Position numbers and translations under genes: made by a program. Shown here in pieces: positions 18,313 to 60,567 of a DNA stretch of 64,000 bases. The first letter of the stretch is position 1, and every line of letters starts with the position of its first letter. The stretch lies in contig JANLFU010000011.1 in assembly GCA_024653215.1 (NCBI GenBank), positions 1 through 64,000 on the forward strand, in the 5' to 3' direction. Below the pieces are notes generated by a model. The model was given only the letters and a program-made list of their open reading frames with translations, was not told where the DNA came from and searched no databases. The stretch is from Candidatus Saccharicenans sp. GTDB taxonomy: Bacteria > Acidobacteriota > Aminicenantia > Aminicenantales > Saccharicenantaceae.

Positions 18313-19482
18313 ATGTTGTTTTCAACTGAAAACAAAAGAATTAAGAAGACCGTCAGGGCCGGTACGGTCTTCCTCTGCCTTTTCCTGATGGTTCTGACTT
18401 CAAGCCTTTTCTCCCAGCAGACGGTCGTCAAAAAAGACGGCCAGCAGATTGTGATAAGTGAAGAGTCAGAGCCCGACCGTATGGGTCTTACACTCCTGCC
18501 CATCATTTATTACACTCCCGAAACCAGGCTGGCCTTCGGACTGGGCAGTCTCATTACCTACCGTTTCGGCCTGGTCTTCAAAAAGGCCCGTCCCAGCACC
18601 ATGTTCCTGGGCGCCATCTATACCCAGCTGAAACAATTTACGCTTCAGATTAAGCCCGAAATATATCTAAATGATAATTCGCTCTTCCTGGCTGGAAACT
18701 TTATGGCTGAACGGTTTCCAACCAAGCTCTGGGGAATCGGTCCTAACACCGCTGATGAAATGGAAGAAGTTTACACTCCGCAGAGGTTTCTGATGGAAGT
18801 CGGGCTGCAGCAGAGGCTGGGCCGGGACCTTCCCCTCTACCTCGGTTTGAAGTATCGCCTGGAAAGCACCAAGATAGTCGAGACTGAACCGGGGAAACTT
18901 CTCGACCAGGATCTGGTCCTTGGCAGCCGTGGTGGGCTACTGTCCGGACCGGGCCTGGCTGCCAGCTACGATAACCGCGATAACATTTTTTATCCAAATA
19001 GCGGGCTTTACCTCCAGGCCAATCTTAACTGGAACGACCATTTCTTCGGGAGCGATTATGATTTTTTAAGCTTCCAGTTTGACCTGCGCAATTACCACCT
19101 GGTTGGCGAAGACCAGGTCCTGGCTGTTCAGGCTCTGGCCGAAACCAACACCGGTGATGTCCCCTTCTACCGGCTGGCGCGCCTCGGAGGGGATTCCCTG
19201 CTACGCGGTTTTTATAATGGCCGTTTCCGGGACATGAATCTGGTCGCCTTTCAGGCCGAGTATCGGTTCCCCGTTTGGAAGAGACTGGGAGCGGTGGTGT
19301 TTGGAGCCATGGGCAGCCTGGCCAATCGTTTCCGGGACATTTCTTTCGATAACCTAAAGTACGCGGCCGGCTTCGGCCTGAGATTTAAGATTATTCCCAA
19401 AGAAAATGCCAACCTGCGGGTGGACCTGGCCTTTGGACCGGGAACCTACGGGATTTATTTTAAGGCCGGGGAATCTTTCTGA
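18313..19482 (+). CDS. BamA/TamA-type outer-membrane beta-barrel protein (surface antigen family)
   Basis: Exported 389-residue protein. A signal peptide (hydrophobic TVFLCLFLMVLTSSLFSQ, about residues 19-36) is followed by alternating strands typical of a 16-strand Omp85-like barrel without POTRA domains. Recognisable are PIIYYTPETRLAFGLGSLITYRF, GPGLAASYDNRDNIFYPNSGLYLQ and the C-terminal GGDSLLRGFYNGRFRD (the loop-6 RGF motif of Omp85 proteins). The chain ends in Phe, the usual C-terminal signal for outer-membrane assembly. Role could be as a secretion or lipid-handling pore, or the barrel half of a secreted lipase family; unproven. It is probably translated from a leaderless transcript. 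Confidence 0.8.
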   Translation: MLFSTENKRIKKTVRAGTVFLCLFLMVLTSSLFSQQTVVKKDGQQIVISEESEPDRMGLTLLPIIYYTPETRLAFGLGSLITYRFGLVFKKARPSTMFLGAIYTQLKQFTLQIKPEIYLNDNSLFLAGNFMAERFPTKLWGIGPNTADEMEEVYTPQRFLMEVGLQQRLGRDLPLYLGLKYRLESTKIVETEPGKLLDQDLVLGSRGGLLSGPGLAASYDNRDNIFYPNSGLYLQANLNWNDHFFGSDYDFLSFQFDLRNYHLVGEDQVLAVQALAETNTGDVPFYRLARLGGDSLLRGFYNGRFRDMNLVAFQAEYRFPVWKRLGAVVFGAMGSLANRFRDISFDNLKYAAGFGLRFKIIPKENANLRVDLAFGPGTYGIYFKAGESF

Positions 19483-50356: not shown

Positions 50357-53300
50357 TCAGAAGCCCGGGGTAATCGTAAACTGCCAGTGCCAGCCCTTGA
50401 TGGGTCGGTCGAAGGGATAGACGTAATCGAAGCCCAGGACCAGCACTCCGAACAGGTTGGTTCTCAGGCCAACACCGGCACTGGAAACCGGCTTCTTTGT
50501 CCCGCCAAACCAGGTCGGCTTTTCGTCTGAGTACCAGGCCGTCCCGATATCGTAAAAGGCCAGGAACTCCAGTGGCCAGACTCCGTAATAACCTTTGCCG
50601 ATACCCAGTACCCGGAACACGGGAAATCTCAATTCCACGTTGGCCACCAGCATCCTCGTTCCAAGGAGGCGATTGAAATCGAACACGTTGGGGTTCTGGT
50701 CGTCGAATTCACTGTACAGAAAGCTGTTGTAATCGTAGCCCCGGACCAGGGTCTCGTACCCCAGGAACAGGGGCCAGAGCCTCGGGTCTTCTGAACCATT
50801 GCCATAACGCCCGTAATGCAGCAGCCGGAAGGCCAAGGTAAAAGGTCGCTTCGGAATGAAGTAGCGACGGTAATCGGCCATGACGCTGATGAAATTCAGG
50901 TCGCCAAAATTGGGCTGGACTTCGAGCAGGTAAGCCTGCCCCAGGATGGGGCTGCAGGCACCAAAGAGAGAGCTGTCATAGACCAGAGCTGCCGAGGCAT
51001 AGCCATACTTCAGTGACTTTGGAGCTGGCAGGTCAAGCTGGTAATAGTCAAGGAGCTGGAAATAAACCGCGTCGTAGATATAGCGGTACATCTTGCTATT
51101 GAAATCTATCAGGTTGAAGCCGGCAGAAAACTCAATCCTTCTGAAGGTATTCAGGGGATAATAGGCGAAGCCGCCCAGCTGGTAAGCAATCTGGCGGTTG
51201 AGATATTCTTCCTGGACATAAACCGGTATTCCTCCATACTCATCAAAATAGGCATTATACGAGCCATAGATATATGGAACCCGCTGCAGGACAGCTCCCC
51301 AGTTAATCCGGTTCCTGGAATTCATGTAGCCGACCAGGGCATAGCTGTCGATTAGTTCATAATTGGTCTGGGCCATGGTCACCACCGTATGATAGCCCAG
51401 CATGTCGCTCCAGAAAGCGGCGATGCCTCCGCCGGCGTAAGTTCCATACCTGTCCACTCCAACCGCCACCGTCGGCCTGCTCACAAAATCCAGGGACAGT
51501 TTTGGCCGGTAGCTGGTGATGGGAAAATCTGTTTCCTTGGGTAGCCCATAAAGGGGGTTCCTCAGCAGTCCCAGCAGGGCCCCTTCGGGCTGGGTTCTGG
51601 GAGGCAGAAGGTCCAGCGGTCTTTCTCCCAGTTGAGCTATGGTGGCCTGGCCCTGCAGCCTGTCCGAGGAATCTACCAGATAAACCGAATAATACCCATT
51701 TTCATAGACGGACATGGCCAGTTTCTGGCCGGCGTGAGAATAGGAAATGGCCGGGCTGAGCTGGGTAATCCCGCCGATTCCGGTAAAGAGGTTGGTAATC
51801 TGGTAGATCTTGCCGTCGCTCAGGTCCAGCCGGTAAAGGTCGGTCTTCCCGGTATAATCAGACAGGAAGAAAAGGTTCCGTCCGTCTCCGGACCATTGCG
51901 GGTTGACATTTTTGCCGGTCGGAAAGCCCAGAACTCGGCTGACTTCCCCGCTGGCCACGTCTAAAAGGGCCAGCTCGTAATTGCCGGTATCCAGCCATTG
52001 CAGGTTGGCGCTGAACCTTTCGGTAACGAAAGCCAGCTTGCTTCCGTCGGGCGACCAGACCGGGTGCAGGTCACCAAAGCTGTCCCTGGTCATTTGCTTC
52101 AGGGTATTGTCTTCGAGGTTATAGATGAAAATGTCTGTTACTCCCCCGACCAGGGCGGCAAAGGCAATTTCTTTCCCGTCGGGTGACCAGGCTGGATTCA
52201 GGATCTCGCCCAGCTCGGGGAAAGGTATTTCCTTTTCTATCCGTCCACTCAGGGCATTCATGATGGTCAGCTGGGGACGGCCCTTGCTGACTGTTCCCAG
52301 TACTATCCGTTCGCTGTCAGGAGCCCAGGCCCCGGCCGACCTGATGAACTGAATACTCTCAAAGTGGGGGTCGATGGCCGTGGAGGTTAACTTCCGCTTA
52401 ACCTTGCCGGTGATAGGATCAGCCAAATAAAGGTCTATTGAGAACAGGTCGCGGGAGGAGAAGAAGATCATGTTCCGGCCGTCAGGGCTCAGCACCGGGG
52501 AAACGTTGTAGGGATTGTTTTCAACTCCTTTGAGGAGCAGGTGTCCATACTTATCCGGAGTCTCGGTCAAGGGGACCAGGGGCTTGTAAGCCTCTTCCAT
52601 GGACTTGTGCCAGTCTTCGGACAGCTTTTTCAGGGGAACCCCGAGTACCCCCTGTAGAACAGATTCGTAATCCCCGCTTCTGGCCAGCATCCTGAAGATC
52701 TTGCCAATCATCTCGTCGCCCCAGCGACCGCCGATGTAAGCCCAGACGGCATGGCCATAACGGTAGGGAAAATACTTGTAATAATTTTCCAGCTTCTTAA
52801 TCTGGGGCAGGTCCTTGCGTTTCCAGGTATCACGCATCCACATGGAGGTTTCGGTGTCAACCGGCCCGATTGACAGGTACTCGGCCAATCCTTCTATCAG
52901 GAAAAGCGGGACCCGGAGCTCGGCCCCCGTATACCGGGCCTGGTCGGAATGCCCCTGGCCGGCGATATCGTACTGGAAGGCATGCACCAGCTCGTGGCCG
53001 ATGACGTGGTCGGTTTCAGCCATTGAGACCCCGTAGGGCAGGACTATCCGTCTCTTGAAAGACTCGGTTACGCCGCCGGTCCCCTCACCCATGGTCTCGG
53101 GAATGACTGTGGTCTGCTGGAACTCAGGACTGCTGGAATAGATGATCAGGGGCTGGCGACCTTTAAGCTCGTGGTTGAAAATCCGGCTCAGCCGGGCATA
53201 CCAGCGTTCGGCCATCATGGCGGCCTGCCTGACCACCTCTTCATCCTGCTGGTAGTAATAGACATCAAAGTGCTTGGTCTTCATTATCTTGAAGTCAAAT

Positions 53301-53422
53301 CTCTTGTACTGAACTTTGTTTCGACCGAAATACTGGGCTTCAAGCGGCAGCACCGAAGTTATGAGAAAAAGGCCAAGCAGGACAGGGATAATCAGAGCCA
53401 GTTTATGCTTAAAAGGGCGCAT
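50357..53422 (-). CDS. Zinc metallopeptidase / TolB-like propeller / outer-membrane barrel fusion
   Basis: A 1,021-residue exported protein with three parts. After a signal peptide (LALIIPVLLGLFLITSVLPLEAQ) comes a gluzincin peptidase-MA-like domain with HELVH at 143-147 and a third ligand in IEGLAEYLS (Glu177 or Glu181). Next are about six PD40/TolB-type propeller repeats (about 290-600; NVSPVLSPDG, LNPAWSPDGKEIAF, LHPVWSPDGSKLAF, VNPQWSGDG). From about residue 660 an Omp85-like beta-barrel runs to the C-terminus, including ETLVRGYDYNSF, and ends FTITPGF. It would place a peptidase in the periplasm attached to the outer membrane, or on the surface. GGAGGAG precedes the ATG. It is only two bases from the convergent fusion gene. 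Confidence 0.85.
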   Translation of the reverse strand: MRPFKHKLALIIPVLLGLFLITSVLPLEAQYFGRNKVQYKRFDFKIMKTKHFDVYYYQQDEEVVRQAAMMAERWYARLSRIFNHELKGRQPLIIYSSSPEFQQTTVIPETMGEGTGGVTESFKRRIVLPYGVSMAETDHVIGHELVHAFQYDIAGQGHSDQARYTGAELRVPLFLIEGLAEYLSIGPVDTETSMWMRDTWKRKDLPQIKKLENYYKYFPYRYGHAVWAYIGGRWGDEMIGKIFRMLARSGDYESVLQGVLGVPLKKLSEDWHKSMEEAYKPLVPLTETPDKYGHLLLKGVENNPYNVSPVLSPDGRNMIFFSSRDLFSIDLYLADPITGKVKRKLTSTAIDPHFESIQFIRSAGAWAPDSERIVLGTVSKGRPQLTIMNALSGRIEKEIPFPELGEILNPAWSPDGKEIAFAALVGGVTDIFIYNLEDNTLKQMTRDSFGDLHPVWSPDGSKLAFVTERFSANLQWLDTGNYELALLDVASGEVSRVLGFPTGKNVNPQWSGDGRNLFFLSDYTGKTDLYRLDLSDGKIYQITNLFTGIGGITQLSPAISYSHAGQKLAMSVYENGYYSVYLVDSSDRLQGQATIAQLGERPLDLLPPRTQPEGALLGLLRNPLYGLPKETDFPITSYRPKLSLDFVSRPTVAVGVDRYGTYAGGGIAAFWSDMLGYHTVVTMAQTNYELIDSYALVGYMNSRNRINWGAVLQRVPYIYGSYNAYFDEYGGIPVYVQEEYLNRQIAYQLGGFAYYPLNTFRRIEFSAGFNLIDFNSKMYRYIYDAVYFQLLDYYQLDLPAPKSLKYGYASAALVYDSSLFGACSPILGQAYLLEVQPNFGDLNFISVMADYRRYFIPKRPFTLAFRLLHYGRYGNGSEDPRLWPLFLGYETLVRGYDYNSFLYSEFDDQNPNVFDFNRLLGTRMLVANVELRFPVFRVLGIGKGYYGVWPLEFLAFYDIGTAWYSDEKPTWFGGTKKPVSSAGVGLRTNLFGVLVLGFDYVYPFDRPIKGWHWQFTITPGF

Positions 53423-53460
53423 AATCTCCTCCTTCTGTCTTTATCGAGTTTCTCACATAC

Positions 53461-53466: not shown

Positions 53467-53535
53467 ACCCAATTTTCGAAAAAAATGATTCATTAAATAC
53501 GGACAGAATAGACCGGGCTGTCCTTGGACCGGGGA

Positions 53536-54309
53536 ATGTGCTATCAAATATACGTGGCCAAGATTTCCGAGGTCAGGGCTCAAAGCATTCTTAACAGATC
53601 CAAAATTTTCGATTATTGCCTGAATCCTTATACCGGTTGTACGCATGGTTGCCGCTACTGTTATGCCGGACTCTTCATGAGGAGGTATTCAGGTCATGCC
53701 GAGCCCTGGGGCCAGTTTGTGGACATCAAGATTAATGCCCCCGAGTTGCTGCGAAGGCAGCTTCCCCGGGCCAGGCGGGGTACGGTCTGGATAGCTTCGG
53801 TTTGCGACCCCTACCAGCCGGTAGAATCCAGGTATCAGCTCACCAGAAAATGCCTGGCCGAGCTCAGCCGCTATGATTTTCCGGTTTTCATCCAGACCAA
53901 GTCTGACCTGGTGGTCCGGGACCTTGACCTCCTGAAGGACCTGCCGCAACTGGAAGTGGGTTTTTCCCTGGCCACCGATGATGACCGGGTGGCTGCCCTG
54001 TTTGAACCGGGAGCCCCGTCCATAACCAGGAGGCTTAAAGCTCTGGAAAAAATTAAGAGCCTCAACCTGAAGACTTTTGCCTTCGTGGGCCCCATACTCC
54101 CCCTGAACCCCGGGCGACTGGTCCGGCAGCTCAGGGGGCTGGTTGACAGGGTGTTTATCGACCGACTCAATTATGTCAGCCAGTTTATTGATTTTTATCA
54201 TCGGCACAACCTTTTAAACTATACGGGCGACGACTTCTTTGAGCGGATGAAGAAGATTCTGGTGGCCGAACTGGAAAAGGCCAAACTGCCCTACGAACTT
54301 ATATTCTGA
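53536..54309 (+). CDS. Radical SAM protein, SPL family-like
   Basis: A radical SAM protein of about 257 residues. The [4Fe-4S] motif CTHGCRYCYA is preceded by YCLNPYTGC, and followed by WGQFVDIKINAPELLRRQL and VWIASVCDPYQPVESRYQLTRKCL, the pattern of the spore photoproduct lyase-like family often annotated SPL radical SAM. Real targets in non-sporeformers are unknown. Starts are uncertain: TTG 53524, ATG 53536 and GTG 53554 are in frame; GTG 53554 gives MAKISEVRAQSILNRSKI, closest to the family start. No convincing ribosome site was found. Confidence 0.82.
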   Translation: MCYQIYVAKISEVRAQSILNRSKIFDYCLNPYTGCTHGCRYCYAGLFMRRYSGHAEPWGQFVDIKINAPELLRRQLPRARRGTVWIASVCDPYQPVESRYQLTRKCLAELSRYDFPVFIQTKSDLVVRDLDLLKDLPQLEVGFSLATDDDRVAALFEPGAPSITRRLKALEKIKSLNLKTFAFVGPILPLNPGRLVRQLRGLVDRVFIDRLNYVSQFIDFYHRHNLLNYTGDDFFERMKKILVAELEKAKLPYELIF

Positions 54310-54320
54310 CCAAAAAGAGT

Positions 54321-54349
54321 TTGCTTTATCTTTCTGGCTTGAGTAAGAT
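54321..54349 (+). promoter_or_regulatory. Promoter of the permease operon, leaderless type
   Basis: TTGCTT (54321-54326), 17 bases, TAAGAT (54344-54349), then 8 bases to ATG 54358. No Shine-Dalgarno sequence. Confidence 0.5.
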
Positions 54350-54357
54350 TTTTAATC

Positions 54358-55662
54358 ATGCTTATTCAGACCCTGGTTGTAACCGCCATAATCATCACCG
54401 CCTATGCCCTGGCCAAATGGCGACAACTGTCCGTGGAACTAAGTCTGTTGATAGCCACGGTGGCCGGTGCACTGGGAGGATCCATTTTCCGGACACCTGA
54501 AATCAGAGAAATTCCCAGGCATCTGGTCGAGGGCTCCTTCACCTACCTGGATGTTATCCTGGTTTTTTTCACGGCCACCCTGTTCATCACCATAGTCCAG
54601 GAATCGGGGGGCGTTAACTTTGCCGTCCGGCAGGCCGTGGTGCGCTTTTCTAAAATCAGGTTTCTGGCTCTATTCATGCTGATGATCATACTTCTGATCC
54701 CGGGAGCCCTGACCGGAGCCGGCAGCGTCTCCCTGCTGGTGGTCGGAGCCCCGGTTGCCCTGGCCATGAAAGGCCTGGGTGTTTCGGAAAAGAATATTCC
54801 GGCCATACTTTTTATCGTGGCCGGACTGGCTGCGGCCGCCCCGCCCGTAAATATCTGGGCCATGGTCCTCTGTGCCGGCACCGCCATCCCCTACATCGGT
54901 TTTGAACTACCTCTGGGATTGCCGGTCCTGGTCCTGGGCACCCTGACCATCATCATCCTGGGAGGAAAGCGGGCTCAGGCCGGCAGCCTGGAAACCTTCC
55001 TGGAAAAAACGCAATATCATCCGGCTATGAACTGGTTGCGCCTGCTGACCCCTTTTGTGGTCTTCTTTGCTCTGGTTGTTGCCTACCGTCTCTGGCCGTT
55101 TTCTTTTCCCATCCTGGGGTTACCCCTGGAATTTCTCCTGGCCTCCCTGGTGGCCCTGGCCCTGAGCCCGGTCCGGCTGAATCTGGTCAAAGTGGCTTCA
55201 GCCACAGTGAGTAAGCTTCTTCCATTACTAGCCATAATGGTCATCGTGGGTATGCTGCAGCAGGTGCTGGCGGTTAGCGGCGTGAAGGGTCTGATTTCCT
55301 ACTCGGTGCTCATCATACCGCTGGGCTTACTGTTCTGCCTTCTACCCCTGATCATTCCGGCTTCAGAAGGTGTTCTGACCTACGGCGGGGCAGCCATCAT
55401 CGGCATTCCCCTGGTCTGGTACCTTAATTCGCTCGGCTACCATGCCACCCTGGTCATCGCCGGGCTGAGCCTGCTCTGGCCACTGGGGGACGGGCTGCCG
55501 CCAACTGCCCTCATCGGGCGGTTGAGCCTGATGGTCTCCGGACAGGAAGGAAAATACTGGGATTTCCTTAAACAGACCTGGATACCCTGGTTGATTATCA
55601 CGGCCACCGGAATGCTGATGATCATTTTCAGCGGTCGTCTCCGTTTCCTGGTGATCGGGTGA
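54358..55662 (+). CDS. TRAP/DctM-like or ion-transporter-superfamily large permease
   Basis: A 434-residue membrane protein with about twelve hydrophobic segments. Features such as GALTGAGSVSLLVVGAPVALAMKGLG, IVAGLAAAAPPVNIWAMVLCAG and GLSLLWPLGDGLPPTALIGR resemble the DctM / gluconate-citrate permease group, which takes up carboxylates. No DctQ or DctP partner is present, so a stand-alone ion-coupled permease is equally possible. It opens the putative peptide/acyl-amino-acid locus that continues with the small membrane protein, the deacylase and the C69 dipeptidases. It has no ribosome site and a -10 box 8 bases before its ATG. Confidence 0.7.
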   Translation: MLIQTLVVTAIIITAYALAKWRQLSVELSLLIATVAGALGGSIFRTPEIREIPRHLVEGSFTYLDVILVFFTATLFITIVQESGGVNFAVRQAVVRFSKIRFLALFMLMIILLIPGALTGAGSVSLLVVGAPVALAMKGLGVSEKNIPAILFIVAGLAAAAPPVNIWAMVLCAGTAIPYIGFELPLGLPVLVLGTLTIIILGGKRAQAGSLETFLEKTQYHPAMNWLRLLTPFVVFFALVVAYRLWPFSFPILGLPLEFLLASLVALALSPVRLNLVKVASATVSKLLPLLAIMVIVGMLQQVLAVSGVKGLISYSVLIIPLGLLFCLLPLIIPASEGVLTYGGAAIIGIPLVWYLNSLGYHATLVIAGLSLLWPLGDGLPPTALIGRLSLMVSGQEGKYWDFLKQTWIPWLIITATGMLMIIFSGRLRFLVIG

Positions 55663-55690
55663 TGGATTATATTTGAAGGATTGGACGGCC

Positions 55691-55852
55691 ATGATAGCCA
55701 GAATCATCATGATTGCTTATTATCTGATAAGCGTTTTTTTTGTATTGATTACCATTAAGAACCTGCTAAAGGAAAGGGATAGCCGGGACCGGGTTGTCCT
55801 GTACCTGGTGACACTAATTCCATTCATCCTAAGATTGTTAAGAATTAAATGA
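55691..55852 (+). CDS. Small membrane protein (53 aa), unknown
   Basis: A short gene between the permease and deacylase genes, starting 28 bases after the permease stop and ending 10 bases before the deacylase ATG. The product opens with a hydrophobic helix (MIARIIMIAYYLISVFFVLITI), has a charged middle (KNLLKERDSRDR) and a second hydrophobic stretch (VVLYLVTLIPFILRLL), so it is probably a two-helix hairpin in the membrane. The ribosome site GAAGGA is a little distant. Position suggests a partner of the permease, but this is inference only. I do not recognise the family. Confidence 0.6.
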   Translation: MIARIIMIAYYLISVFFVLITIKNLLKERDSRDRVVLYLVTLIPFILRLLRIK

Positions 55853-55862
55853 GGATTTAACC

Positions 55863-57029
55863 ATGAAAACGGCAGGAACTGGATTCAAACTGTCAGTGGC
55901 CGCGGTCTTTATCATTCTGTTGATCACCGGGGGCTGGCCCCTCAGGCAGCACCGGCATTTCCCGGTCGAGATTGTTTGCGGGCCGGGAGTCACCGAAATC
56001 AGGAACCTGAGCGACTATCTGCCTGTCCTTAAAGGAACCGTGGCCGATACGCCGGTTTTCATCCTTTCGGGGAAAGAACCCGGAGGCTCGGTCCTGGTCA
56101 TGGGTAACACTCATGCCAACGAACCCGAAGGCATGCTGACGGTAGCCATCATGGTCGAGAACGCAGTGGTGGAAAAAGGCACAGTTTTCCTCATCCCCTT
56201 TTTTAACCGCAGTGCCAGCCTGAACACCAGGCCGGGAGAGGGGTACCCGCTGTATTTTTCTGTCAAGACCCCCTGGGGCCAGAAGAGGTTCAGGATGGGC
56301 AACCGGGATGCCTCTCCCCTGGACCAGTGGCCAGACCCTGACGTCTATATCCACTATCCTGAAAAGCAGATGCTCTCCTACCTTGACATCCGAAACACCA
56401 ACCGGACCTGGCCCGGCCGGAAGAACGGCCTGCCCATGGAACAGGTAACCTTCGCTGCCATGGAGCTCCTGCGCCGGGAACGGGTGGACCTGGCCATCGA
56501 CCTGCATGGAGCCGAAACCATGTTCCCGGTCACCAACTGCATCGTGGTCCCGGAAAAATCCATGAGAATTGCCACCCTGGCTTCCCTGACTGTTAAATCG
56601 ATGGAGGGTTTCGAGAACCACCTGGAATCATCCCCGGAAAAATTCCGCGGACTTTCCCACCGTGAAATCGGGGATTATTCGGACACCCTGCCCTTCCTTC
56701 TGGAATCCCCCATACCCTTTTTGGACCAGCCGACCGGGGCCAAAACAGAAAAGCTTTTTCTCGATGGTCGGGATGAATTTCTGCTGAGCCTGGCCCGAAA
56801 GAAAAAATTATTTGTTCCCTATGACGAATCAGGCTGGTCTCTGGACCGCAGGGTGGGACAGCATCTTTCTGTCAGCCTGGAAATCATCAGACAGTATTCC
56901 AGAAAAACACCTGACCGGGCCATCATTATCAAAAATGTCCCCAGGTATTCAGACCTGGTGACCAACGGGACGGGGACCTATTTTCACAACCCGGCCCCGG
57001 TTGAAAAAGGAAAGGTGGTAAAAATATAA
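55863..57029 (+). CDS. Exported succinylglutamate desuccinylase/aspartoacylase-type (M14-like) zinc enzyme
   Basis: A 388-residue enzyme of the zinc carboxypeptidase-like deacylase group. An N-terminal hydrophobic signal or anchor (KLSVAAVFIILLITGGWPL) is followed by GNTHANEPEGML (zinc His and Glu) and LAIDLHGAETMFPV (zinc His). The general-base Glu should lie further on (candidate near EIGDYSDTLPFLLESP). It likely removes an acyl or amino-acid group from N-acyl amino acids or short peptides outside the cytoplasm. Start ATG 55863 follows GAGGATTTAACC. It belongs to a run of same-strand genes from 54358 to 61233. Confidence 0.78.
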   Translation: MKTAGTGFKLSVAAVFIILLITGGWPLRQHRHFPVEIVCGPGVTEIRNLSDYLPVLKGTVADTPVFILSGKEPGGSVLVMGNTHANEPEGMLTVAIMVENAVVEKGTVFLIPFFNRSASLNTRPGEGYPLYFSVKTPWGQKRFRMGNRDASPLDQWPDPDVYIHYPEKQMLSYLDIRNTNRTWPGRKNGLPMEQVTFAAMELLRRERVDLAIDLHGAETMFPVTNCIVVPEKSMRIATLASLTVKSMEGFENHLESSPEKFRGLSHREIGDYSDTLPFLLESPIPFLDQPTGAKTEKLFLDGRDEFLLSLARKKKLFVPYDESGWSLDRRVGQHLSVSLEIIRQYSRKTPDRAIIIKNVPRYSDLVTNGTGTYFHNPAPVEKGKVVKI

Positions 57030-57089
57030 ATTTTAGCCCCGGTTCCATCTTACTGAACGCGGGCGAAAATAATTATGGAGCAGTCATAA

Positions 57090-58787
57090 ATGAAAAAAAC
57101 AATAATCTTGAGCCTGGGTCTTGGCCTGATCCTGTTAACTTTCCTGCTCATTTCCGGCCAGCAGTCCGGAGTCCGTCCGGATGAATGTGTCCTGACTGCT
57201 GAAAATTGCACGGTCATCATGGTTGGTAAGAAAGCCTCGGCTGATGGCTCGACCATGACCACCCACACCGCTGACTGTGGAATCTGCGACTGGACCTGGC
57301 GGTACGTTCCGGCCGCCGACCACAAACCGGGTGCCACCCGTAAAATTTACCGCATTTCCCAGATGAGAACCTGGCCGCCAAGCGAGGGCCTGAAGTGGGA
57401 CTTAATTAAGAAGGATTTTACCGGGGTGGAGATACCCGAGGTCCCGCATACCTTCGGGTACATGCACGGGGTTTTTGGCTACATGAACGACCAGCAGCTG
57501 GCCATCGGTGAATCCACCATAGGAAACAGGCCCAAGATGTCCAACCCGACCCAGACCCCGGCCTTCAACATTACCATGCTGACCCTGCTGGCCATGGAAC
57601 GATGCCGGACGGCCAGGGAGGCCATCAGGCTCATGGGTTCACTGGCCGAAAAATATGGCTACGGGGGCGAGGACGGAGGCGAAATGCTGGCCGTGGCTGA
57701 CCCGGAAGAAGTCTGGGTATTTGAAATCATGCCGGTTGGCCCTCTCTGGACCCCAGATAGCGGGAAGCCGGGGGCCGTCTGGTGTGCCCAGAGGGTGCCC
57801 GACGACCAGGTCAGCGTCTGCCCCAACGAGTCCAGAATCGGGGAAATCGACCTCAATAACCAGGACTTTTTCATGGCCTCGCCCAACGTAATTTCTTACG
57901 CGGTCGAAAACGGATACTGGGACCCCAAGAGCGGCCAGCCCTTCAGCTGGAAAAAGGCCTACAGCCCGGCCGAAGGCAACGCCAAGGACCAGCCGCGCCG
58001 GGCCAGGATGTGGCGGTTCTTTGACCTGGTCTCCCCGTCATCCAAGTTTTCTCCCTCCCTGCCCAACATGGATTTCCCTTTTTCAGTAAAACCGGATAGA
58101 CCCCTATCGGTTAAAGACGTGATGGAAATGACCAGGGACAAGGGTTATGGCACCTTTTTCGATCCCACCCGCGGGATCAGGGGTGGTCCTTATAAGAATC
58201 CAAACTATGACAGCACTGCCCGGCTGATCAGCGTTCGCAATGCCGAATACACAACCGTCACCCAGTGCCGCGGCTGGCTGCCGGCGCCTATCGGGGGAAT
58301 TGTCTGGTTATCCTGGGGAGCCCAGGACACCGCCTGCTATATGCCCTTTTATGCCGGGATTAAAGCCCTGCCCCCTTCCTTCAGTATCGGCGACCACTGG
58401 GTCTTTAACCGCCAGTCAGCTCGCTGGGCTTTTGATTATGTGGATTTCCACGTCCAGGTAGCTTACTCGGTAGCTATAGAAGAAATTAAAAAAGCCAGGG
58501 AAAAATGGGAAGACGGAGCTCTCAACCAGATTCCCGATATTGACCGGAAAGCCCTTGAGCTTTACCAGAAGAATCCGGCCAAGGCTTCAGATTTTTTAAC
58601 GGCCTTTTCCGTTAGCAATGCCGAAGCCGTGGTTAAGGCCTGGTGGCAGCTGGGCGATGACCTTCTGGTCAAGTTCAATCACCTGAGCTACTACAACACT
58701 GAACGGCGGACGGTGGACAGAAGGAAAATGGACTTTCCCGAGGCCTGGAAAAAAGCGGTCAGGATAATTGACATCATTTTTGAGTGA
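57090..58787 (+). CDS. Exported C69-family dipeptidase, copy 1
   Basis: A 565-residue N-terminal-nucleophile peptidase of family C69 (PepD-like). A signal segment (IILSLGLGLILLTFLLIS) precedes the catalytic Cys40 in ENCTVIMVGKKASADGSTM; the enzyme should be activated by exposing this cysteine. Conserved blocks are HTADCGICDWTW, QLAIGESTIGN, GEMLAVADPEEVWVFEIMPVGPLW and YMPFYAGI. It hydrolyses dipeptides, here probably in the periplasm. GGAG is twelve bases before the ATG. The next gene is a close paralogue. Confidence 0.92.
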   Translation: MKKTIILSLGLGLILLTFLLISGQQSGVRPDECVLTAENCTVIMVGKKASADGSTMTTHTADCGICDWTWRYVPAADHKPGATRKIYRISQMRTWPPSEGLKWDLIKKDFTGVEIPEVPHTFGYMHGVFGYMNDQQLAIGESTIGNRPKMSNPTQTPAFNITMLTLLAMERCRTAREAIRLMGSLAEKYGYGGEDGGEMLAVADPEEVWVFEIMPVGPLWTPDSGKPGAVWCAQRVPDDQVSVCPNESRIGEIDLNNQDFFMASPNVISYAVENGYWDPKSGQPFSWKKAYSPAEGNAKDQPRRARMWRFFDLVSPSSKFSPSLPNMDFPFSVKPDRPLSVKDVMEMTRDKGYGTFFDPTRGIRGGPYKNPNYDSTARLISVRNAEYTTVTQCRGWLPAPIGGIVWLSWGAQDTACYMPFYAGIKALPPSFSIGDHWVFNRQSARWAFDYVDFHVQVAYSVAIEEIKKAREKWEDGALNQIPDIDRKALELYQKNPAKASDFLTAFSVSNAEAVVKAWWQLGDDLLVKFNHLSYYNTERRTVDRRKMDFPEAWKKAVRIIDIIFE

Positions 58788-58821
58788 TGGAATAAAATCT
58801 TACCAAGTCATGGAGGTTTTG

Positions 58822-60567
58822 ATGTTTAAAAAACTAAAGAAGAACAGATTCGGACGCTGGTCTCTTCCGGCTCTGGCCCTGATGATGGTCGTCCTGGCCG
58901 TATTTTATTTTACCGGCCGGGCCGAAAAGGTCGACCCGGGGCTGGAGGTTTCCAGACCAGCCGATAACTGCACTTCCATACTGGTCGGTCGACTGGCCTC
59001 GGTTGACGGTTCAACCATGACCACCCATACCTGCGACTGCGGTCTTTGCGATTGGACCTGGCGGCACGTTCCGGCCGCCCGTCACAAACCCGGAGAAACC
59101 AGGAAAATCTATCATATCTCCCAGTTCAAGACCTGGCCCCCAACCGAAGGCCTGAAGTGGGACCTGGTCAAGAAGGACTTCACCGGCCTGGAAATCCCAG
59201 AGGTTCCGTATACCTATGCCTACCACCACGGCATGTTCGGCTACATAAATGAAAAGCAGGTGGCCATAGGAGAATCGACCATCGGGAATGTCCGCAAGCT
59301 GGACAACCCCACTCCAACCCCGGCTTTTGACATCACCATGCTGACCATAATCGCCATGGAAAGGGCCAGCACGGCCAGGGAAGCCATAAAAATCATGGGA
59401 GAACTGGCCGAAAAGTACGGATACGGTTTTCATGACAACGGCGAGATGCTGGCTGTGGCCGACCCCAAGGAAGTCTGGATTTTCGAAATAATTCCGGTCG
59501 GTCCGCTGTGGACGCCGCAGAGTGGCAAGCCGGGCGCGGTCTGGTGTGCTCAGCGAGTACCTGATGATCACGTCAGCGTCTGTCCCAATGAATCGAGGAT
59601 TGGCGAAATTGACCTGAATAATCCTGATTACTTCATGGCCTCCCCCAACGTTATTTCCTGCGCGGTGGAAAACGGTCTTTATGACCCGGCCAGCGGGAAA
59701 CCGTTTAACTGGAAGAAAGCCTATTCGCCGCTAAACGAGAGCGCTACCAGTTCCAGCGGTCGTTACCAGAGGCTATGGCGCTTTTTTGACCTGGTCGCCC
59801 CATCCCTGAAGTTATCCCCTTCCACTCCCAACATGGACCTGCCGTTCTCGGTCAAGCCCGACAGGAAAATCTCGGTGGCCGACGTAATCAATATGACCCG
59901 CGACCGCAGCTACGGCACGCCCTTCGACCCGGTCAAGGGTATCCGCGGAGGACCATTCAAGAACCCGAATTACTACCGCCAGACCAGGACCATCTGCGAC
60001 AGCCGGGCCGAATATTCCACGGTTACCCAGTGCCGGGACTGGCTGCCCGACCCCATCGGCGGAATAGTCTGGATTTCTTTCGGCTCACAGGATACTGCCT
60101 GTTACATGCCTTTTTACGCCGGGGTGACAGAACTGCCCCGCTCTTTCTCCATCGGCGACCACTGGGTCTTCAACCGCGATTCGGCCCGCTGGGCCTTCGA
60201 TTATGTTGACTTTCACGTTCAGGTCATCTACTCCGAAGCCATCAAGGACGTGGAACAGGCCATCCTGAAATACGAAAAGCCCCTCATTGACCAGATCCCG
60301 GAGATTGACCGCAGGGCTACGGAACTCTATAAGAAAAACCCAAAAGAGGCGGCCAGGTTCCTGACCGGTTTCTGCCTGAACAACGCTCAGAACGTGGTCA
60401 AGGCCTGGTGGGACCTGGGAGACCAGCTGCTGGTCAAGTACAACCATCTCTACCTGTACAACGCGGAAAAGAGAACCTACCAGCGGCGATTCCCAAATTA
60501 TCCCGACCTCTGGCAAAAGGCGGTCAGGGCCTTTGACGTCCTGTTTGAATCCGAGGAGAAAAGATAA
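58822..60567 (+). CDS. Exported C69-family dipeptidase, copy 2
   Basis: A 581-residue paralogue of the preceding gene. The N-terminal hydrophobic segment (WSLPALALMMVVLAVFYFTG) leads to the catalytic Cys50 in DNCTSILVGRLASVDGSTM, followed by the same blocks (HTCDCGLCDWTWRHVPAA, VAIGESTIGN, GEMLAVADPKEVWIFEIIPVGPLW, CYMPFYAGV). Long stretches are identical to copy 1, pointing to a tandem duplication. I chose ATG 58822 because TGGAGG lies just upstream and the signal then begins properly; a start at 58768 would overlap the end of copy 1. Confidence 0.92.
   Translation: MFKKLKKNRFGRWSLPALALMMVVLAVFYFTGRAEKVDPGLEVSRPADNCTSILVGRLASVDGSTMTTHTCDCGLCDWTWRHVPAARHKPGETRKIYHISQFKTWPPTEGLKWDLVKKDFTGLEIPEVPYTYAYHHGMFGYINEKQVAIGESTIGNVRKLDNPTPTPAFDITMLTIIAMERASTAREAIKIMGELAEKYGYGFHDNGEMLAVADPKEVWIFEIIPVGPLWTPQSGKPGAVWCAQRVPDDHVSVCPNESRIGEIDLNNPDYFMASPNVISCAVENGLYDPASGKPFNWKKAYSPLNESATSSSGRYQRLWRFFDLVAPSLKLSPSTPNMDLPFSVKPDRKISVADVINMTRDRSYGTPFDPVKGIRGGPFKNPNYYRQTRTICDSRAEYSTVTQCRDWLPDPIGGIVWISFGSQDTACYMPFYAGVTELPRSFSIGDHWVFNRDSARWAFDYVDFHVQVIYSEAIKDVEQAILKYEKPLIDQIPEIDRRATELYKKNPKEAARFLTGFCLNNAQNVVKAWWDLGDQLLVKYNHLYLYNAEKRTYQRRFPNYPDLWQKAVRAFDVLFESEEKR

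Follow-up and report, generated by a model that had tools for sequence, protein, structure and literature searches.

A predicted zinc peptidase joined to a TolB-like propeller and an Omp85 barrel in a single chain of Candidatus Saccharicenans

In 2014, Heinz and Lithgow defined a WD40-Omp85 subfamily, noted its likeness to TolB, and proposed for it a role like that of BamA-BamB; the word 'peptidase' is absent from their text (PMC4104836). They also defined a 'Metallo' subfamily by PF00149 (PMC4104836). In PlpD (patatin-Omp85), a hydrolytic enzyme stands N-terminal to an Omp85 barrel, with the enzyme in the periplasm (PMC11116518). In M9 collagenases, the zinc ligands are provided by HExxH and a Glu located 28–30 residues further along, a Gln and a Glu that lie one turn past the first and the second of these, respectively, stabilise the histidines, and a double Gly lies ahead of an edge strand that ends in a calcium-binding Glu (PMC3711286). 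In the collagenase Ghcol, Tyr564, located 44 residues after the third ligand Glu520, affects catalysis (PMC9304777). Our literature search found no study of a chain with the order peptidase, propeller, barrel.

The window, a stretch of 64,000 nucleotides from a contig of Candidatus Saccharicenans sp., an uncultured bacterium from sediment, contains a minus-strand open reading frame at positions 50357..53422 that encodes a 1021-aa protein and is present as a single copy in its genome. A first-pass annotation made from the letters alone had read this frame, with exact coordinates, as a three-domain single chain, and Pfam, an AlphaFold2 model, fold searches, and conservation all confirm that reading. 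The full-chain AlphaFold2 model, computed with 77 relatives, has a pLDDT of 90.2 and a pTM of 0.86; zinc-site geometry and domain packing are judged here from fold matches and residue spacing. From the N-terminus to the C-terminus, the chain comprises a signal peptide, a zinc peptidase domain (residues 30–289), a propeller (residues 290–592), a linker (residues 593–642), and an Omp85 barrel (residues 643–1021), with the following features.

53428..53433, minus strand: Shine-Dalgarno sequence AGGAGG, 5 nt upstream of the ATG, a strong ribosome-binding site read from the sequence
50357..53422, minus strand: whole gene, 1021 aa, ATG at 53422 and stop codon at 50357-50359
53336..53422, minus strand: signal peptide, residues 1-29, MRPFKHKLALIIPVLLGLFLITSVLPLEA, identified by eye, low pLDDT and disordered in the model
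53303..53335, minus strand: conserved mature N-terminus QYFGRNKVQYK, residues 30-40, compared between the full-chain and domain-alone models
52556..53335, minus strand: predicted zinc peptidase domain, residues 30-289, gluzincin fold nearest to M9/M30 peptidases
53063..53083, minus strand: GTGGVTE, residues 114-120, double Gly and edge-strand Glu positioned like the M9 S1' GG motif and calcium Glu
52982..52996, minus strand: HELVH, residues 143-147, two predicted zinc ligands and catalytic Glu, with Q150 one turn on
52880..52894, minus strand: EGLAE, residues 177-181, predicted third zinc ligand E177, 30 residues past H147, and second-shell E181
52763..52765, minus strand: Y220, 43 residues past E177, invariant, matching the position of Ghcol catalytic Tyr564
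51647..52555, minus strand: six-bladed TolB-like propeller, residues 290-592, from Pfam, model, and fold match
51497..51646, minus strand: linker, residues 593-642, one short helix in the model
50360..51496, minus strand: Omp85 barrel, residues 643-1021, 16 strands in the model, C-terminal Phe
50735..50746, minus strand: VRGY, residues 893-896, Omp85 L6 motif in the beta11-beta12 loop

By-eye reading bears out the signal peptide of the first-pass annotation and finds no lipobox Cys in it. The mature N-terminus that follows is confident in the full-chain model and disordered when the peptidase domain is modelled alone, suggesting that it probably packs against another domain. The stretch Q-Y-F-G-R-N-K-V-Q-Y is among the most conserved of the family, though it lies outside the peptidase core.

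The propeller and the barrel are the parts most readily recognised by profile. PD40 is matched in four Pfam stretches (73.6 bits against a cut-off of 20.9), and the modelled strands fall into six blades, in line with the about six repeats counted initially. The top VIA match of the propeller is TolB (Z 26.6, 244 residues aligned, rmsd 2.2), but the TolB equivalog score is not reached (125 bits against a cut-off of 343), and the peptidase occupies the place of the TolB N-terminal domain. The C-terminal Omp85 Pfam domain scores 37.6 bits against a cut-off of 24, the barrel ends in Phe as first read, and its VIA matches are BamA and Sam50 (Z about 21–22, about 290–300 residues aligned). The Omp85 L6 motif, (V/I)RG(F/Y) between beta11 (residues 861–873) and beta12 (residues 923–934), is present as VRGY. 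The protein thus has the barrel and the L6 motif of the Omp85 superfamily, but lacks the at least one POTRA domain that some definitions, not that of Heinz and Lithgow, ask for: Pfam finds no POTRA match in it, and the model shows only the linker at residues 593–642.

This architecture is that of the WD40-Omp85 subfamily, in which a TolB-like propeller likewise stands directly before an Omp85 barrel with no POTRA domain; here, however, a complete zinc peptidase is predicted to precede the propeller, and none is mentioned in PMC4104836. The propeller-barrel combination is therefore of a known type, and the zinc enzyme domain looks to have been overlooked. PF00149, by which the 'Metallo' subfamily is defined, is a domain that we take to be the calcineurin-like phosphoesterase, so that subfamily would be a different group from the zinc-peptidase proteins. 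PlpD differs in having a lipase-type domain and one POTRA domain, whereas the 1021-aa protein lacks POTRA and carries a predicted zinc peptidase followed by a propeller. BamA has multiple POTRA domains and is the main assembly factor, whereas the 1021-aa protein has none and the BamA of its genome is encoded elsewhere. In the pair of BepA (M48) and BamA, a gluzincin peptidase works at an Omp85 barrel in the periplasm, as is predicted here, but the two are separate proteins and BepA carries TPR repeats, for which Pfam finds no match in the 1021-aa protein.

Proteins with the order peptidase, propeller, barrel form a large family that spans several phyla, and the arrangement is not peculiar to this locus. 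A whole-protein search found full-length proteins of the same type (type A), with 50–98% identity, in most genomes of the order; the related loci from a collection scan number at least 508. Of these, the 80 best belong, by MAG names as deposited, to Aminicenantes ('Candidatus Saccharicenans' among the nearest), other Acidobacteriota, Gemmatimonadota, KSB1, Zixibacteria, Calditrichota, Ignavibacteria, Fibrobacter, and a Rubricoccaceae; groups with full-length relatives are also given as Fibrobacterota and Rhodothermia. A strong match is present in 22 of 60 genomes sampled across the phylum, mostly of a second type (type B), and in a tree types A and B fall on opposite sides, both with full support. 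A type-B gene was not found in the genome of the 1021-aa protein. Since the same full-length domain order recurs in dozens of independent genomes, chance or an assembly artefact as the origin of the fusion is ruled out. The wide spread of the family and the full conservation of its predicted cutting site mark the protein as genuine and open to experiment, not as an isolated curiosity. A plasmid search found one barrel-less relative, the sole such case, in Salinibacter ruber: a 633-aa protein that shares the N-terminal motif, the active site, and the propeller but has a low-complexity tail where the barrel would be, and that RefSeq names 'basic secretory protein-like protein'. Its N-terminal stretch retains the conserved Q-Y-F-G-R-N-K-V-Q-Y signature. 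The barrel-less relative suggests that the peptidase and the propeller form a separable working core, with the barrel as an anchor.

The N-terminal domain is predicted to be a zinc peptidase by its fold. Modelled alone (pLDDT 86.7), it finds an M9 collagenase as its best VIA match (Z 17.8, 229 of 263 residues aligned, rmsd 3.0), followed by an M30 peptidase and then M1 aminopeptidases. Foldseek alone gives a weaker result (best E 6e-4), a fold search of a viral structure library returns mostly propeller proteins, and the peptidase profile has no match to PDB sequences up to E 1. In Pfam, three zinc-peptidase-like families fall just under their cut-offs with the whole protein. Specifically, Peptidase_MA_2 (PF13485) scores 24.8 bits with the whole protein and 28.4 bits with the domain alone against a cut-off of 32.4, and is matched by 55 of the 76 relatives at E up to 0.1, a limit at which M48 is matched in only 2 of 76 members. 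The BSP family (PF04450) is matched weakly by all 76 peptidase domains (best 1.5e-8), but the 1021-aa protein stays under its cut-off (21.9 against 23.8 bits) and the family definition includes no propeller-barrel. No PF01752 match is listed by Pfam for the 1021-aa protein, and no collagenase activator domain lies ahead of residue 30. The profile search that the first-pass annotation had proposed therefore comes out in two parts, PD40 and Omp85 standing above their cut-offs and peptidase MA falling below. Because its Pfam scores are mostly under cut-off, the peptidase domain has been overlooked in annotation, and such proteins are easily named just a propeller or a hypothetical protein. The peptidase assignment is supported by the fold match and by conservation, not by a Pfam score.

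The predicted active site is complete. HELVH (residues 143–147) and EGLAEY (from E177) stand where the first-pass annotation had placed them, and in the model helix 134–155 holds H143 and H147 while helix 173–185 holds E177, giving the HExxH motif and the Glu ligand on the next helix that characterise gluzincins. Every element of the M9 set (GG motif, HExxH, Glu 28–30 residues later, stabilising Gln and Glu, and Tyr) is present, as judged by spacing and conservation and not by atomic superposition. M9 collagenases (ColG, ColH, Ghcol) and M30 peptidases are the nearest solved folds and share this active-site spacing, including the GG motif, second-shell Gln and Glu, and Tyr; in contrast to the 1021-aa protein, they are secreted, carry activator or collagen-binding modules, and have no barrel or propeller, and the sequence match of the 1021-aa protein is under the family cut-off. 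What appears to be new here is that a domain resembling M9/M30 peptidases, with a complete active site, precedes a propeller and a barrel. Structure prediction gave neither a missing C-terminal barrel nor, by spacing and fold match, a disrupted zinc site, the two outcomes named in advance as telling against the three-domain reading.

Conservation points to the same residues. Among 77 aligned sequences, H143, E144, H147, E177, E181, G117, and Y220 are invariant, and Q150 (74/77), E120 (73/77), and G116 (72/77) nearly so; the collection scan used patterns spanning the active-site motifs, so its 77/77 is partly selected. HExxH and the Glu are also present in 21 type-A and 20 type-B proteins from the whole-protein search, which is free of motif selection. 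The 20 type-B proteins retain the zinc ligands as well as E181, E120, and Y220; at position 116 most have Leu or Met, and position 150 holds Gln or Glu. Among B-like proteins from other classes of Acidobacteriota (a comparison from which loci L167 and L176, mis-picked by the motif filter, were excluded), E181 is sometimes Ser or Asp while E177 is constant, supporting E177 as the third zinc ligand. Furthermore, the peptidase is the best-conserved domain of the chain, with a mean identity to the 1021-aa protein among 76 relatives of 52%; the propeller stands at 46% and the barrel at 43%. The chain is under purifying selection: the median dN/dS among seven near relatives is 0.017 for the peptidase, 0.065 for the propeller, and 0.035 for the barrel, medians that come from 7–8 pairs with dS under 2 and, as dS is about 1.4 and near saturation, are meaningful in rank order only.

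Taken together, the sequence and model data favour an outer-membrane-anchored zinc endopeptidase acting in the periplasm, with a probability of about 0.62. Both ends of a 16-strand barrel lie on the same side of the membrane, and in BamA the loop between strands 11 and 12 is extracellular and folded into the lumen. Because the VRGY loop joins beta11 and beta12, the N-terminal 640 residues would be periplasmic; we infer both this location and catalytic activity from topology and precedent. The Omp85 barrel would insert in the outer membrane with its N- and C-termini in the periplasm and would hold the enzyme at the membrane, in the way that PlpD keeps its lipase in place. The M9-like active site would cut extended or unfolded polypeptide laid along the edge strand, while the adjacent TolB-like propeller would hold or screen the polypeptide chain. 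We guess that, at the inner face of the outer membrane, envelope proteins in an unfolded state or peptides on their way in are the likeliest substrates. The tethering by the barrel proposed in the first-pass annotation finds agreement among the model, the fold search, and conservation, and the barrel-less relative fits an anchor role. That annotation named no face of the membrane, for which barrel topology indicates the periplasm and not the surface, and the peptide-processing machine that it suggested is a putative role. The genome encodes elsewhere a separate BamA (773 aa, with POTRA domains) and four other Omp85 proteins, so the 1021-aa chain would be an extra; this BamA and the barrel-less relative argue that the barrel is chiefly an anchor, not an assembly machine. 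In many phyla of soil and sediment, the outer membrane would thus carry a conserved enzyme family for which we found no tested function in the literature. The propeller subfamily had no function assigned in the 2014 Omp85 census, and the predicted complete zinc active site opens it to direct biochemical study.

Upstream of the gene lies a divergent plus-strand block (53524-60567) that encodes a radical SAM protein, a carrier-like membrane protein without a Pfam match, an AstE/AspA-like hydrolase, and two C69 dipeptidases whose N-termini look like signal segments. Gene order in this block is conserved within the genus, the block itself also in part of the family, and neighbours differ elsewhere. 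No conserved operon partner of type A was found: the neighbours vary from family to family, and none kept beyond the family points to a substrate. At nine Gemmatimonadota loci (L119, L122, L123, L124, L136, L137, L145, L149, L151), an MlaD/MCE-like lipid-transport gene is convergent with type A and 12–125 bp downstream of it; because this adjacency is confined to one clade, it is not taken as a functional link.

If the protein is an anchored endopeptidase of the periplasm, its candidate purposes are the use of nutrients and quality control of the envelope. An enzyme that cuts peptides entering the periplasm and thereby feeds exported dipeptidases and carriers is a possible purpose, though we hold it only tentatively: in the genus the gene adjoins the carrier, the AstE-like hydrolase, and the two C69 dipeptidases with signal-like starts, and the gene directly after the Salinibacter relative reads by eye as a peptidase, a serine carboxypeptidase, yet the divergent block is conserved no further than the genus and a part of its family, and retention of the protein across phyla of varied lifestyle suggests a general envelope role. 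A further step away is a single-chain machine for outer-membrane protein assembly and quality control, in which the lateral gate of the Omp85 barrel would assemble or hold client barrels, the propeller would act as BamB, and the peptidase would destroy stalled clients, the part that BepA has for LptD on BAM. We regard this as rather unlikely, despite a true Omp85 barrel with the L6 motif, an LptD-like protein encoded in the same genome, the likening of propeller-Omp85 proteins to a BamA-BamB fusion by Heinz and Lithgow (PMC4104836), and the finding that a BepA edge strand holds immature LptD on BAM (PMC8423444). The POTRA domain is absent, a separate BamA and four more Omp85 proteins are encoded in the genome, type A has no conserved neighbour among outer-membrane-biogenesis genes, and a barrel-less relative exists. 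In addition, we know of no assembly role for the enzyme-Omp85 fusion PlpD. If this account were true, one chain would unite the roles of the separate BamA, BamB, and BepA across many little-studied diderm phyla.

Two other accounts are much less probable than these. The barrel might pass the peptidase and the propeller outward to digest external protein, a delivery initially proposed for PlpD, as recounted in the 2014 census (PMC4104836), and in keeping with the fold similarity of the enzyme to secreted collagenases; but the PlpD domain turned out to be periplasmic (PMC11116518), and about 560 folded residues would need to cross, making surface display improbable. Characterised Omp85 proteins have their N-terminal domains in the periplasm, which also counts against it. 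Least probable of all is a scaffold that binds polypeptide but has no catalytic activity: fold and family matches by themselves are no proof of catalysis, but across type A every catalytic and second-shell residue is invariant or almost so, and it is the peptidase that is conserved best. An anchored, active endopeptidase on the periplasmic side therefore remains our preferred reading.

In Aminicenantia, type-B genes (L063, L056, L061, L054, and others) are next to dnaA-dnaN and follow two lipoprotein-like genes, the first with TPR and the second encoding roughly 220–260 aa without a Pfam match. Both lipoprotein-like partners recur in other classes, and overlapping or close starts suggest that they form an operon with the type-B gene. 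The window itself encodes, at 18313-19482 on the plus strand, a 389-aa Omp85 barrel protein of the 'noNterm' type, which has a signal peptide but no N-terminal domain that can be recognised. Outside the window, at L189:169-6504 on the plus strand (G000:C35:37168-43500), the same genome encodes a single 2111-aa chain that combines DUF748/TamB with three POTRA domains and an Omp85 barrel. This TamB-TamA fusion could reach from the inner to the outer membrane; it is found at full length in most genomes of the genus, and frames of 2144–2450 aa are present in three other families of the order.
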